From Haloferax marinisediminis (GTDB lineage Archaea > Halobacteriota > Halobacteria > Halobacteriales > Haloferacaceae): a stretch of DNA of 64,000 nt. A model generated the notes under the pieces. It searched no databases. It saw only the letters and a list, made by a program, of their open reading frames with translations, and was not told the DNA's origin. Where the stretch lies: contig NZ_WKJP01000001.1 in the NCBI RefSeq assembly GCF_009674585.1, forward strand, positions 1,426,001-1,490,000. The letters run 5' to 3'. Shown here in pieces: positions 2,509 to 60,193 of this stretch. The position numbers and the translations under genes were made by a program. Position 1 is the first letter of the stretch. Every line of letters starts with the position of its first letter.

Positions 2509-3141
2509 CTACGCCTCTGTCCCTGCTCGGTACCGGCGGTACGCAGGCGGAACGAGAAGTGCACACCCCGCGAGCGCCGCGAGTGCGACGAACTCGGGGC
2601 GGACGATTGCCTGCAGGGAGTCGGTCGTGAGCGTCTCGACAGACGTGCCGGCGACGACGCCGGCAATCGCCCACGGGAGTTCGCCGAGCGCTGTCCCGAG
2701 TGCAAACGCGCCGAGTCTGACGTTCGCGACGCCTGCTGCAACCGACACGACGTCAGAAGGAACCGGCAACAGTCTGCTCGCAGTCACGCCTCTGACAGAC
2801 CCGGTGATGGCGACGGTCTGCTCGCCGACTTCGGCCAGTCTACTCGTCCCGCGGAACCGGCGTGCGAAGATAAACGGCGGGATACTCGTGAGGACGATGA
2901 GCGCGAGGGCGAACGGAATCCCGATTGGGCCGAGTCCATACCCGACGATGAGCGCGAGGAGCGTCGTCGGCCACGCGAGGAGCGGACGAACGAGGGCGAG
3001 GAGGCTCACGGCGACGACGAGACGAACCGGGTCGGCGGCGACCCACGTCGCGTGCGAGACGACGGCCGCTGGTGAGACGACGAACGCACCGACCAACAGC
3101 ACGGCCAGTGCGAGGCCAGCGACGAGACGTGGGCGCTTCAC
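2509..3141 (-). CDS. TVP38/TMEM64 (DedA-like) family membrane protein
   Basis: 210 aa with about five hydrophobic segments. The layout is typical of the TVP38/TMEM64/SNARE-associated domain: an N-terminal helix, a central re-entrant region (residues about 55-90) with GYGLGPIG, then RLLPVPSDVVSVAAGVANVR, a version of the family's R-x-x-P motif. Family members are thought to move lipids or act in membrane homeostasis; the substrate here is unknown. It converges on gpmI, whose stop is 35 bp away. The start ATG at 3141 directly precedes the first helix. Confidence 0.85.
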   Translation of the reverse strand: MKRPRLVAGLALAVLLVGAFVVSPAAVVSHATWVAADPVRLVVAVSLLALVRPLLAWPTTLLALIVGYGLGPIGIPFALALIVLTSIPPFIFARRFRGTSRLAEVGEQTVAITGSVRGVTASRLLPVPSDVVSVAAGVANVRLGAFALGTALGELPWAIAGVVAGTSVETLTTDSLQAIVRPEFVALAALAGCALLVPPAYRRYRAGTEA

Positions 3142-3231
3142 GGTAACTCGACAGAGCGTCGTCTCGCAGCGACCAAACGCTTTGTGCTTCGGAGGGCTTT
3201 AGCCCGATGGGACTCGAATAGCATCCGACTC

Positions 3232-52859: not shown

Positions 52860-54071
52860 ATGACAGACGCCGCGTCCCTCGCCGACCGCGTTCGGGAGGG
52901 CGAACTCCGCCTCCACGAACTCGAAGCACACGCCGACGCCGACGTCGCCGCCGAAGCACGCCGCCTCCTCGTCGAAGAGCAGTCGGGTGCGTCGCTCGAC
53001 TCGGTTGGTAACTACGGCTTCCCCGCCGAGAAGGCCGAGTCGGCCATCGAGAACATGGTCGGTGCCATTCAGGTGCCGATGGGTGTCGCTGGCCCCGTCA
53101 CCGTGAACGGTGCCGCCGTCTCCAGCGAAAAGTACCTGCCGCTGGCGACCACCGAAGGTGCACTCCTCGCGTCGGTCAACCGAGGGTGCTCGGTTATCAA
53201 CAGCGCTGGCGGCGCGACCGCCCGCGTCCTCAAGTCCGGAATGACCCGCGCCCCGGTGTTCCGCGTCGCCGACGTGGCCGAGGCCGAAGCACTCGTCTCG
53301 TGGACTCGTGACAACTTCGAGAAGCTGAAAGACGCCGCAGAGGAGACGACGAGTCACGGCGAACTCCTCGACGTGACGCCGTACGTCGTCGGCAACTCCG
53401 TCTATCTGCGCTTCCGCTACGACACGAAAGACGCGATGGGGATGAACATGGCCACCATCGCCACCGGGGCGGCCTGTGACGTCGTCGAGGCAGAGACCAC
53501 CGGGTCGCTCGTCGCCCTCTCGGGCAACCTCTGTACCGACAAGAAACCTGCCGCCATCAACGCCGTCGAAGGACGCGGTCGGAGCGTCACTGCCGACGTT
53601 CGTATCCCCCGCGAAGTCGTCGAACAGCGACTCCACACCACGCCGGAGGCCATTGCGGAACTCAACACGCGAAAGAACCTCATCGGGTCGGCGAAGGCCG
53701 CGAGTCTCGGCTTCAACGCCCACGTCGCCAACGTCGTCGCCGCGATGTTCCTCGCGACGGGACAGGACGAAGCACAGGTCGTCGAAGGCGCGAACGCCAT
53801 CACGACCGCCGACGTTCAAGACGGCGACCTCTACGTCTCGGTCTCGCTCGCATCGCTCGAAGTCGGGACGGTCGGTGGCGGCACCAAACTGCCGACGCAG
53901 TCCGAGGGACTCGACATCCTCGGTATCCGCGGCGGTGGCGACCCCGCCGGGTCGAACGCCGACGCCCTCGCCGAGTGCATCGCCGTCGGGTCGCTCGCCG
54001 GTGAACTCTCGCTTCTCTCTGCACTCGCCTCGCGGCATCTTTCGAGCGCTCACGCGGAGCTGGGACGGTAA
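52860..54071 (+). CDS. hmgA: Hydroxymethylglutaryl-CoA reductase (NADPH), class I
   Basis: 403 aa. Makes mevalonate, the precursor of archaeal lipids and carotenoids. ENMVGAIQVPMGVAGPVTVNG, TTEGALLASVNRGC with the catalytic Glu, DAMGMNMAT for nucleotide binding, NLCTDKKPAAINAVEGRG with the catalytic Lys, and GTVGGGTKLPTQ are all present. The haloarchaeal enzyme is the statin target. An AAACCGTTAG stretch 28 nt upstream of the ATG is the probable TATA region. Confidence 0.97.
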   Translation: MTDAASLADRVREGELRLHELEAHADADVAAEARRLLVEEQSGASLDSVGNYGFPAEKAESAIENMVGAIQVPMGVAGPVTVNGAAVSSEKYLPLATTEGALLASVNRGCSVINSAGGATARVLKSGMTRAPVFRVADVAEAEALVSWTRDNFEKLKDAAEETTSHGELLDVTPYVVGNSVYLRFRYDTKDAMGMNMATIATGAACDVVEAETTGSLVALSGNLCTDKKPAAINAVEGRGRSVTADVRIPREVVEQRLHTTPEAIAELNTRKNLIGSAKAASLGFNAHVANVVAAMFLATGQDEAQVVEGANAITTADVQDGDLYVSVSLASLEVGTVGGGTKLPTQSEGLDILGIRGGGDPAGSNADALAECIAVGSLAGELSLLSALASRHLSSAHAELGR

Positions 54072-56391: not shown

Positions 56392-56931
56392 TCAGAGCAG
56401 GCGATACCGACCGCCGGACTCTGAGACTTCGCCGCGACGCCGGAGCTTCTCCAGCAGGTCGCGGGCGCGCTCTTCGGGAACACCACGCTCGCTGGCGACG
56501 GCCACGATTTCGTCTTCCGACGGTCTGTCACCGTCCCGAATCGACTCGCGGACGATAGTCAATCGGTCTTTCGACCCCGACGAGGCGGCCCGACCACGTT
56601 TCGCCTGTTCGCCGGCGTCGAACACCTCGTCGGCGTCGAGTCCCGACCCTTCGAGATACTCCCGGTCGTCGATACCCGACTCCTCGACCTGCCGGTCGAG
56701 TTCCGAAACGTGTTCCAACTGCGCGAACGCCTCGCTGTCGCCGTGTTTCTTCGCCAGGAGCGCCGCCCGTGCCTGTCTCGCGGCGTCGCGGTCTTCCGAC
56801 TCGAAGAATCGGCGAAGTTTCTTGGTCTGGTGTCGCTTCCCGCATCGCGGACACGTCGCCGTCTTCGACTCCCGCGGGTTCGAGAGCAACCACATGTTCG
56901 CACAGTCCGTACAGCCCACGACCGCGTACAT
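56392..56931 (-). CDS. DUF5817 protein: zinc ribbon plus C-terminal winged helix
   Basis: 179 aa. N-terminal ribbon CTDCANMWLLSNPRESKTATCPRCGKRHQTKKLRRFFE has CxxC ... CxxC. A helical charged middle leads to RLTIVRESIRDGDRPSEDEIVAVASERGVPEERARDLLEKLRRRGEVSESGGRYRLL, a winged-helix domain like those in archaeal Mcm/replication factor tails. I recall the N-terminal family as DUF5817. Possibly nucleic-acid binding. Confidence 0.85.
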   Translation of the reverse strand: MYAVVGCTDCANMWLLSNPRESKTATCPRCGKRHQTKKLRRFFESEDRDAARQARAALLAKKHGDSEAFAQLEHVSELDRQVEESGIDDREYLEGSGLDADEVFDAGEQAKRGRAASSGSKDRLTIVRESIRDGDRPSEDEIVAVASERGVPEERARDLLEKLRRRGEVSESGGRYRLL

Positions 56932-57453: not shown

Positions 57454-57518
57454 AATAGGTTGTAATTATTTTGCCGACGGAACTCCCTAACTATGCCCTC
57501 CCACCGCGTATCTCTCCC

Positions 57519-58118
57519 ATGGATAGCGTCCAGCCCGCCGAACGCCCTCGTGGCAACTCCACGTCGCAGACGGCGATGAGCCGTACGTCACTCTCGCGTG
57601 AGCCGTGGCTCTGGGTGTTCGTCGGCGTGTGGGCGGTCTTCGTGAGTGTGCTGCACTTCGGTGGACTGGCCTACGGTATCTACACGAAGATTTGGTGGTG
57701 GGACCTACTGACCCACTCGCTGTCGGGATTCGGGGTCGCCGGTGTGTTGTTCCTCGTCTTCCCGCAGACGTTCAACGGGAGTCGGGCGCCGGTCGTCGTT
57801 GCCGGCGTCATCCTCGCAATCGGCGCCGGGTTCGAAGTGTACGAGTACCTGTTCAAGGACTTCTGGTACGGATGGTCGGCAGCGTACTACTTCGAAGACA
57901 CCGTCACCGACCTCGTGGTCGACGTCCTCGGTGCGCTCGCGTTCGTCGTCCTCGTCGACGGCGTCGTTCGGTTCACGACCGACCCGTCGCGGTTGACCGA
58001 GTCACAACCGTCGGGTAACCCCGCAAACCTCCGGTCTGACGGTGGTGATGCGTCGACGTCTCCCGACGCCGCAACTCCGTCGGACGACGACACACTGTCC
58101 ACACAGTCACAGCGTTGA
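57519..58118 (+). CDS. YjdF/DUF2238-like membrane protein, copy 1
   Basis: 199 aa, four membrane helices (about 30-50, 60-85, 92-108, 130-155) and a disordered Ser/Thr/Asp tail of about 45 residues. Helix 2 and loops hold YTKIWWWDLLTHSLSGFGVAG, GAGFEVYEYLFKDFWYGW and AYYFEDTVTDLVVDVLGA: an Asp-His-Gly-Glu-Glu-Asp-Thr-Asp pattern as in DUF2238 (YjdF). The polar residues in membrane positions suggest a metal or substrate site; function unknown. The next gene is a diverged paralogue. Confidence 0.8.
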   Translation: MDSVQPAERPRGNSTSQTAMSRTSLSREPWLWVFVGVWAVFVSVLHFGGLAYGIYTKIWWWDLLTHSLSGFGVAGVLFLVFPQTFNGSRAPVVVAGVILAIGAGFEVYEYLFKDFWYGWSAAYYFEDTVTDLVVDVLGALAFVVLVDGVVRFTTDPSRLTESQPSGNPANLRSDGGDASTSPDAATPSDDDTLSTQSQR

Positions 58119-58182
58119 GTTTCCGTCCCTCGTGACGGTCGGGTTAATTTAATCAATAACCTGCTTCTCGGTGGGAATAACG

Positions 58183-58193
58183 TACATATTTTA
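58183..58193 (+). promoter_or_regulatory. TATA box before the second YjdF-like gene
   Basis: AT-rich TACATATTTTA, centred about 23-24 nt upstream of an ATG at 58212, which is not the start of the membrane protein but of a short upstream ORF. Confidence 0.55.
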
Positions 58194-58211
58194 GATTCCC
58201 TTTCACCCGGT

Positions 58212-58295
58212 ATGGACTCGCATCGAACTGGCCTGCAGCAGCAGGCATCACACACGGCACCCGGCGCACAGCGCCCCCCAGCTCTCGGATGCTGA
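58212..58295 (+). CDS. 27-codon upstream ORF overlapping the next start codon
   Basis: ATG GAC TCG ... TGC TGA, product MDSHRTGLQQQASHTAPGAQ plus seven residues. It begins where a leaderless transcript from the TATA box at 58183-58193 would start, and ends 4 nt past the ATG (58289) of the YjdF-like gene, in another frame. It may regulate that gene's translation by coupling. Confidence 0.4.
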   Translation: MDSHRTGLQQQASHTAPGAQRPPALGC

Positions 58296-58723
58296 AACAG
58301 ACGTGGGACCAGATGGTCGTACCGCGGTGGGAAGAACGCCCACGAGAGATGGCAGTCGTCGCCACGTGGGGCGGTGCGGTCACCATCACTCACTTCGTGA
58401 GCATGGCGTTGTTCCTCTACACGAAGATTTGGTGGTGGGATATCTTCGTCCACGCAGCCTCTGGGTTCGGTGTCGCGGCGTTGCTGTACGTGTTCAAGCC
58501 GCGACTGTTTCGCTCGCCGGTCGCACTGCTCGTCGTCCTCCCGGTTGCCGTCGCCGCGATTGGAACGTGGTTCGAAGTGTACGAACGACTCTTCACGGAT
58601 TTCTGGGTCGAGTGGACTACCGCGTACTATCTCGAAGACACGGGAGTCGACATCGTCGCCGACACGGCCGGTGCTGTCGTCTTCGGTCTGGTCCGCCCCC
58701 TGTTCGACCGCCTTCGACGGTGA
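58289..58723 (+). CDS. YjdF/DUF2238-like membrane protein, copy 2
   Basis: 144 aa, four helices. It repeats the key motif of copy 1: LYTKIWWWDIFVHAASGFGVAALLY, GTWFEVYERLFTDFWVEWTTAYYLEDTGVDIVADTAGAVVF. It lacks the disordered C-terminal tail of copy 1. Outside the motifs the two differ strongly, so the duplication is old. A short ORF overlaps the start. Confidence 0.8.
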   Translation: MLKQTWDQMVVPRWEERPREMAVVATWGGAVTITHFVSMALFLYTKIWWWDIFVHAASGFGVAALLYVFKPRLFRSPVALLVVLPVAVAAIGTWFEVYERLFTDFWVEWTTAYYLEDTGVDIVADTAGAVVFGLVRPLFDRLRR

Positions 58724-58791: not shown

Positions 58792-60045
58792 TTACGCCAG
58801 TTCCTGAATATTCTCGACGACCTTGTCGGCGTACTCGCTCGTGGCGAGCTTGTTGCCGCCTTCGATCTGACGCTCGAGGTCGTACGTGACGTTGCCCTCG
58901 GAGATGGTCTTCTCGACGGCGTCGCGGATGAGCTGTCCGGCGTCCTTCCAGCCCATGTACTCGAACATGATGCGGCCGGAGAGAATCATCGCGGTCGGGT
59001 TGACCTTGTCCTGACCGGCGTATTTGGGTGCGGAGCCGTGGACGGGCTCTGCGAGACAGAGACCTTCACCGAAGTTGCCACCGGGGGCGATGCCGAGGCC
59101 ACCGATCTGGGCGCCTGCGGCGTCGGACATGTAGTCGCCGTTGAGGTTCATCGTGGCGATGACGTCGTAGTCGGCGGTGCGGGTGAGGAGCTGCTGGAGC
59201 ATGTTGTCGGCGATGCGGTCCTTGACGACAACCTTGTCCTCTGGCTTCTCGCCGTCGTACTCTTCCCAGAGTTCGTCCTCGGTGATGGTGACGTCGCCGA
59301 ACTCCTCTGCTGCGAGTTCGTAGCCCCAGTCACGGAAGGCACCCTCGGTGAACTTCATGATGTTACCCTTGTGGACGAGGGTGACGGAGTCACGGTCGTT
59401 TTCGAGGGCGTACTCGATTGCTTCGCGGACGAGACGCTTCGTCCCGAACTCGGTGATCGGCTTGATGCCGATGCCGACTGGGCCGTCGTGGATGACGTTG
59501 TCGAAGCCCATCTCGTCTTCGACGAACTCCTTGACCTGCTGGACTTCGTCGGTACCGGCTTCCCACTCGATGCCGGCGTAGACGTCTTCGGTGTTCTCAC
59601 GGAACGTGACCATGTCCATCGCCGAGGGGTTCTTGACGGGCGACGGGACACCGTCGAGGTGGTACGTCGGGCGGACGTTCGCGTAGAGGTCGAGCTTCTT
59701 ACGGAGTGCGACGTTCAGCGAGCGGAAGCCTGCGCCGACGGGCGTCGTGAGCGGGCCCTTGATGGCGACGCGGTGGTCGCGGATGGCGCTGACGGTGTCC
59801 TCGGGGAGGTTCTCGTCGTACTTGTCACGGGCCGAGGCGCCGGCGTAGACGCGCATCCAGGATACAGAGCGTCCAGTTGCCTCTGCGGCGGCGTCGAGGA
59901 CCTTCTGTGCGGCCGGGCCGACGTCCGTTCCGATACCGTCACCGTGGATGATTGGGATGATCGGGTTGTCGGGAACGGAGAGTTCGCCGTCCTCGAACGT
60001 AATTTTCTCGCCGTCTTCAGGTACCTCAATCTGGTCGTAGCTCAT
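58792..60045 (-). CDS. icd: Isocitrate dehydrogenase (NADP-dependent)
   Basis: 417 aa citric-acid-cycle enzyme giving 2-oxoglutarate. PIIPIIHGDGIGTDV at the start, FRSLNVALRKKLDLYANVRP with the substrate-binding Ser and Arg residues, RENTEDVYAGIEW, DVIATMNLNGDYMSDAAGAQIGGLGIAPG with metal Asp residues, and EPVHGSAPKYAGQDKVNPTAMILS for the nucleotide. The ATG at 60045 (MSYDQ) starts the conserved N-terminus; an ATG two codons upstream is possible. Confidence 0.97.
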   Translation of the reverse strand: MSYDQIEVPEDGEKITFEDGELSVPDNPIIPIIHGDGIGTDVGPAAQKVLDAAAEATGRSVSWMRVYAGASARDKYDENLPEDTVSAIRDHRVAIKGPLTTPVGAGFRSLNVALRKKLDLYANVRPTYHLDGVPSPVKNPSAMDMVTFRENTEDVYAGIEWEAGTDEVQQVKEFVEDEMGFDNVIHDGPVGIGIKPITEFGTKRLVREAIEYALENDRDSVTLVHKGNIMKFTEGAFRDWGYELAAEEFGDVTITEDELWEEYDGEKPEDKVVVKDRIADNMLQQLLTRTADYDVIATMNLNGDYMSDAAGAQIGGLGIAPGGNFGEGLCLAEPVHGSAPKYAGQDKVNPTAMILSGRIMFEYMGWKDAGQLIRDAVEKTISEGNVTYDLERQIEGGNKLATSEYADKVVENIQELA

Positions 60046-60193
60046 GAACAATGAGGGATTTTGAGTACGGTGTAAAAGTCCTGCCGTTCTCCCGCTCGTT
60101 CCGCAAATATCACGTCATCCACTGGCGTTCGGTTGCTGTTCGGTTCGATTGGTGTTCGATACGTTTACCCGCAATCTCCGAGTGCGCGTACGT

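Follow-up and report, generated by a model that had tools for sequence, protein, structure and literature searches.

Two tandem membrane proteins of Haloferax as probable minimal four-helix members of the Lipocone superfamily

Analysis of a 64,000-nucleotide window of the Haloferax marinisediminis genome (the whole stretch of DNA studied) points to two adjacent, anciently duplicated genes, A and B, whose products are probably minimal four-helix members of the Lipocone superfamily situated near its Wok/DUF2238 family, each likely to act by itself as an enzyme on lipid head groups of the outer leaflet; we put the probability of this reading at roughly 0.6. It is founded on the homology of the two proteins, their predicted four-helix fold, the invariance of a set of residues and their position on one face of the membrane, the conservation of the genes and the purifying selection on them. 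The Lipocone superfamily unites the Wnt proteins, the phosphatidylserine synthases and VanZ, and it groups DUF2238 ('Wok') with VanZ among its predicted lipid head-group enzymes (PMC12419801, eLife 2025). Since the superfamily has thus been published together with the chemistry predicted for it, the "undescribed activity" that the initial annotation had proposed for the pair is not supported. A and B represent a divergent variant within a superfamily that is known but for the most part unproven.

The tandem pair, its history and its surroundings

The two diverged membrane-protein ORFs that had been noted in tandem were both recovered (Table 1); they are separated by 170 nucleotides, and their 47% identity across B residues 19-134 (E 2e-29) indicates that the likeness is not due to chance. 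All three sequence blocks first listed for them recur in A and in B, but the spacings of two were off by one, so that the blocks read WWWD-x3-H-x2-SGFGVA, FEVYE-x-LF-x-DFW and YY-x-EDT-x2-D (x2 in place of x3 after the histidine and after EDT). The in-frame second ATG of A may be its functional start; the stretch before it looks nearly unselected (dN/dS 0.76). B is 91% identical to its counterpart in H. profundi, and the closest named relatives are from Haloferax species.

Table 1. Features of the A/B region in window coordinates
Feature	Position	Strand	Remarks
HMG-CoA reductase	52860-54071	+	Pfam; a like gene (by eye) upstream of the pair in Salinigranum L051
DUF5817 protein	56392-56931	-	Pfam; a like gene (by eye) upstream of the pair in Salinigranum L051
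Short upstream ORF of A	57493-57579	+	28 codons; TGA overlaps ATG 57576 (ATGA)
Protein A ORF	57519-58118	+	199 aa; 180 aa with start at ATG 57576
A, D-x3-H (predicted site)	57702-57716	+	
A, E-x2-E (predicted site)	57834-57845	+	
A, DT-x2-D (predicted site)	57897-57911	+	
AT-rich element aataacgtacatat and variants	58176-58189	+	conserved upstream of B in aligned Haloferax loci
Short upstream ORF of B	58212-58295	+	27 codons; TGA overlaps B start (ATGCTGA)
Protein B ORF	58289-58723	+	144 aa
B, D51/H55 (predicted site)	58439-58453	+	
B, E96/E99 (predicted site)	58574-58585	+	
B, D117/T118/D121 (predicted site)	58637-58651	+	
Isocitrate dehydrogenase	58792-60051	-	Pfam; like genes (by eye) downstream of the pair in Haloferax and Salinigranum

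A search with B of 148 genomes of the family yielded a match at E <= 0.001 in 88, including all 15 of the Haloferax genomes. Among the matches listed, A and B lie close together in 15/15 Haloferax and 4/4 Salinigranum genomes, and in none of the remaining genomes do two matches adjoin. Likewise, in the 54 named loci a second copy is confined to L039-L051, comprising 12 loci of Haloferax and one of Salinigranum, the other genera having single copies. As far as these searches reach, the pairing is constant in these two genera alone. More distant paralogues in the same genome are represented by L003, L004, L005 and L037. Genes like the neighbouring HMG-CoA reductase, DUF5817 and isocitrate dehydrogenase genes are recognised by eye in Salinigranum L051, and the pair accordingly holds the same chromosomal position in both genera; the distance from A to B varies from 46 to 1876 nucleotides across the loci, with a gene of the TnpB/OrfB IS605 type sitting between the two in H. 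larsenii (L041, 3171-4454). The pair is an old tandem duplication. Two tandem DUF2238-type frames (1456-1800 and 2813-3157) are also seen in a locus of the same phylum lying outside the haloarchaeal order (L117).

Across 13 Haloferax sequences the median dN/dS is 0.24 for the core of A (77 of 78 pairs usable) and 0.17 for that of B (78 of 78), and both copies are under purifying selection. At 17 positions the two are fixed differently (eight Haloferax rows each), one of these being a one-residue gap in A; the differences include V54/T, W94/G, R100/Y and T103/K, and several lie beside predicted catalytic residues. Such a pattern is consistent with two proteins that are each kept for a task of its own. 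In a phylogenetic tree of 71 rows, comprising subfamily matches of at least 100 bits from locus L039 onwards together with L001, L006, L020, L021 and L023 (identical sequences being entered once and nine outgroup rows added), the B proteins of both genera are joined (100/99). The Salinigranum A proteins fall beside this B group (99/94), apart from Haloferax A; constraining all 18 A rows to monophyly was not rejected (p-AU 0.16). Along the alignment Salinigranum A is A-like in columns 20-60 (0.53-0.77 versus 0.34-0.53) and about equally or more B-like in most windows past column 60, an apparent mosaic seen in L051 (4397-4864), L020, L021 and L023. Gene conversion between the tandem copies may plausibly have shaped Salinigranum A.

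A short upstream ORF precedes A at the same place in all 13 Haloferax sequences, overlapping the start as ATGA in 11 and as TAATG in two, and one of 26-37 codons precedes B in all 13, its frame being kept and its length changing in multiples of three. Among the 28 genes of the window with free upstream space four carry such an overlapping ORF, two of them being A and B, and shuffled sequences give 2.4 +/- 1.4; the arrangement itself is therefore unremarkable and only its conservation in 13/13 is notable. From this conservation alone, control of A and B by termination and reinitiation is suggested. The peptide of the A upstream ORF looks unselected (median dN/dS 0.92). The conserved AT-rich element is probably B's own promoter.

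Seven neighbours in the window were scanned, namely HMG-CoA reductase, an Rce1-like protease, a hydrolase, the DUF5817 protein, a cupin, isocitrate dehydrogenase and an asparaginase family protein. An operon or a functional partner among them was rejected; the context changes in other genera (e.g. RuBisCO large chain in Halobellus L055). In that locus and in L067 (Halogeometricum) the single copy lies between a gene resembling ribose-1,5-bisphosphate isomerase (by eye) and a RuBisCO large chain, for which the Pfam assignment is limited to L055. PMC9051519 lists HVO_2588 as isocitrate dehydrogenase, and by gene order A and B would adjoin it in H. volcanii.

Affinities of the A/B subfamily

Compared with Pfam and NCBIfam, A and B reached no family, returning only sub-threshold unrelated names; neither matched PF09997 at E <= 10, and neither had a detectable match to any chain among PDB sequences. 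The paralogues L004 and L005 match the DUF2238 model at 19.7 and 20.1 bits, below its cut-off of 26.4, and E. coli YjdF matches it at 2e-58. A profile of the subfamily (68 sequences) aligns with 30 archaeal DUF2238 proteins at a probability of 99.0 (E 6e-18, 113 columns), the set comprising all 30 loci found by PF09997 in genomes of the same phylum, several of which score below the Pfam cut-off; the D-x3-H, E-x2-E and DT-x2-D motifs fall in register in this alignment. With haloarchaeal VanZ proteins the probability is 93.8 (E 1.7e-7, 114 columns), a value obtained with 19 of 30 loci, after 11 without an in-frame [DN]K-x2-H at the match were dropped, a choice that favours the shared motif. Reversed-profile controls gave 0.2 for DUF2238 and 1.1 for VanZ. 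The subfamily profile does not match E. coli YjdF alone (probability 4.3), and the 30-protein DUF2238 set reaches it at 91.1. The label "YjdF-like" is therefore sound as a distant relationship through the archaeal DUF2238 proteins, and lacks both a Pfam match to DUF2238 and a direct link to the E. coli protein.

We found in A and B a predicted four-helix core, conserved polar positions and profile similarity to member families, all features of Lipocone membership; of the Wok features, neither a score above the PF09997 cut-off nor the two-helix N-terminal extension was present. These profile comparisons suggest that the subfamily adjoins DUF2238/YjdF ('Wok'), and more distantly VanZ, within the Lipocone superfamily. 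The main text of PMC12419801 does not contain the word "haloarchaea"; DUF2238 has been reported beside heliorhodopsin genes in Trichococcus (PMC9769723). Among the open-licence papers searched, none was found that deals with A or B or tests a member of their subfamily. Work on the Bacillus "yjdF riboswitch" was set aside, as it concerns a different protein that shares the name.

Wok proteins (DUF2238, PF09997; E. coli YjdF) resemble A and B in being integral to the membrane and in carrying D-x3-H, E-x2-E and DT-x2-D in helices 2-4. They are described as having a two-helix N-terminal extension and a "handle" in the linker between helices 3 and 4 (PMC12419801). Whereas a single helix precedes D-x3-H in A (a hydrophobic one) and in the B model (18-40), three do so in YjdF, L004 and L005; the aspartate of the motif is residue 51 in B as against 101-103 in those proteins. 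From the glutamate to the aspartate the spacing is 18 in A and B, 23 in YjdF, L004 and L005, and 17 in L093 and L096. Lacking the N-terminal extension, A and B are not typical Wok members, yet they may work like Wok enzymes. In VanZ (PF04892) the D-x3-H, Glu and Asp positions can be aligned with theirs over 114 columns, but the match is weaker than that to DUF2238, and the VanZ rows shown have E-x2-Q in place of E-x2-E and a shorter stretch from Glu to Asp. The characterised Lipocone enzymes PTDSS1/2 and TelC would share with A and B the predicted common site and a chemistry on lipid head groups; they differ from A and B in that PTDSS1/2 fall within the circularly permuted cpCone clade, whereas TelC is classed as a toxin domain (PMC12419801).

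Predicted active site and its orientation

The four-helix frame first proposed is reproduced by AlphaFold2 in both proteins, with helices at 18-40, 50-69, 77-106 and 111-143 in B (pLDDT 91.3) and at 29-51, 59-80, 90-116 and 121-153 in A (pLDDT 81.1, tails poor). In an alignment of 44 sequences, nine of which come from outside the haloarchaea and mostly from bacteria, twelve positions are invariant throughout, namely Y44, W50, D51, H55, G61, G92, E96, E99, D117, T118, D121 and G128 (B numbering); both A and B keep every predicted catalytic position, so that each alone has the complete set. The Lipocone site is described as a His in helix 2, a Glu in helix 3 and an Asp in helix 4, with further positions in a fourth polar residue near the end of helix 3 and a Gly late in helix 4 (PMC12419801). 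To these correspond H55, E96, D117/D121, E99 and G128, every one of them invariant in 44/44. Hence, as judged by alignment, the noted Asp, His and Glu residues coincide with the predicted active site of the superfamily.

In the B model helix 2 begins with D51/H55, the last third of helix 3 contains E96/E99, and D117/D121 fall within the first third of helix 4; as successive helices run in opposite directions, all of these would be placed near the same membrane face. The initial interpretation is in this way supported in part, for the residue set but neither for an undescribed activity nor for a heterodimer. Over 35 haloarchaeal rows the net charge is +1.94 for the loop between helices 2 and 3, +1.09 for the C-terminal stretch and -1.49 for the loop between helices 3 and 4, from which, by the positive-inside rule, the site probably faces outwards; the charges of the loop between helices 1 and 2 (+0.43) and of the N-terminus (+0.40) in the same rows do not discriminate between the sides. 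An outward-facing site agrees with the outer-leaflet head groups expected as Lipocone substrates (PMC12419801). Searched with Foldseek, the PDB yielded 76 matches at E <= 10, of which none reached E <= 0.001. The best VIA-align score, from a list that re-examines Foldseek's own rows only, was a Z of 9.3 to photosystem I subunit L over 93 residues; this is in the range of common helical arrangements and no reading is drawn from it.

The mechanism that follows is inferred, as are the chemistry, the membrane side and the difference between the copies. The tail of a lipid would be seated in the cone of the four helices, with the His of helix 2, the Glu pair of helix 3 and the Asp of helix 4 at its outward-facing mouth; these residues would act on an archaeal lipid, replacing or removing its phosphate-linked head group, and A and B would differ in their substrates or in the conditions under which they act. 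Some Wok proteins have been proposed as cardiolipin synthases (PMC12419801). About 3 kb past the end of the window and about 8.5 kb downstream of the A/B pair, the same genome has an open frame of 774 residues (G000:C1:1493027-1493839) that carries two PLDc_2 (HKD-type) stretches and is a candidate HKD-type cardiolipin synthase. Given this frame and the published halophile cluster of HKD cardiolipin synthase homologues (PMC8141893), cardiolipin synthesis does not need A and B.

Alternative readings and significance

An obligate heterodimer, or a higher complex, in which A and B together make up a single composite active site would account for the constant order of the two genes and their corresponding chromosomal position in the 15 Haloferax and four Salinigranum genomes searched. 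We nevertheless consider it quite improbable: relatives in other genera are single copies, each protein has the full residue set, the intergenic distance is 170 nucleotides here and 46-1876 elsewhere, in one species with the TnpB-type gene in between, and B has a conserved upstream element of its own. Short overlaps are reported to occur preferentially among genes encoding heteromeric subunits, and a spacing of about 20 nucleotides to remove translational coupling almost entirely in the pairs studied there (PMC10666635), whereas A and B do not overlap. On evidence that is thin, nothing here favours the heterodimer over two independent enzymes.

Asp, His and Glu residues borne on helices are also typical of metal sites. 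The invariant residues could thus belong to a metal-binding or transport site, as in a metal or proton carrier, and the single-copy relative in L053 does lie among genes resembling those of Trk/TrkA potassium transport (by eye). However, their pattern aligns with a superfamily containing the characterised lipid enzymes PTDSS1/2 and TelC, the proteins have only four helices, and the seven neighbours scanned in the window include no transporter, which makes this reading similarly improbable. It is also conceivable, if unlikely, that A and B are non-catalytic, i.e. sensors or structural membrane factors merely binding a lipid head group, given that some Lipocone families are inferred to be inactive and others are tied to signalling (PMC12419801). 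Against this, all predicted catalytic positions are invariant in the 44 sequences, whereas in the inactive metazoan Wnt family the pattern is described as degraded (PMC12419801).

The preferred reading, of two lone outer-leaflet head-group enzymes, leaves room for a bolder and rather unlikely extension, according to which the pair would remodel the head groups of isoprenoid-ether lipids, for instance between pools of glycolipid and phospholipid, or onto surface glycans that carry a lipid anchor, with one copy having gained a new substrate after the duplication and both possibly acting in one complex. If true, the Wok-like branch would thereby gain its first activity in archaea. In the published account the archaeal cpCone branch is called uncharacterised and the proposal for Wok rests on gene neighbourhoods (PMC12419801). 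A minimal version of 144 residues with an adjacent paralogue in a genetically tractable genus is a convenient test case for the predicted His/Glu/Asp site and its supposed exchange of lipid head groups.
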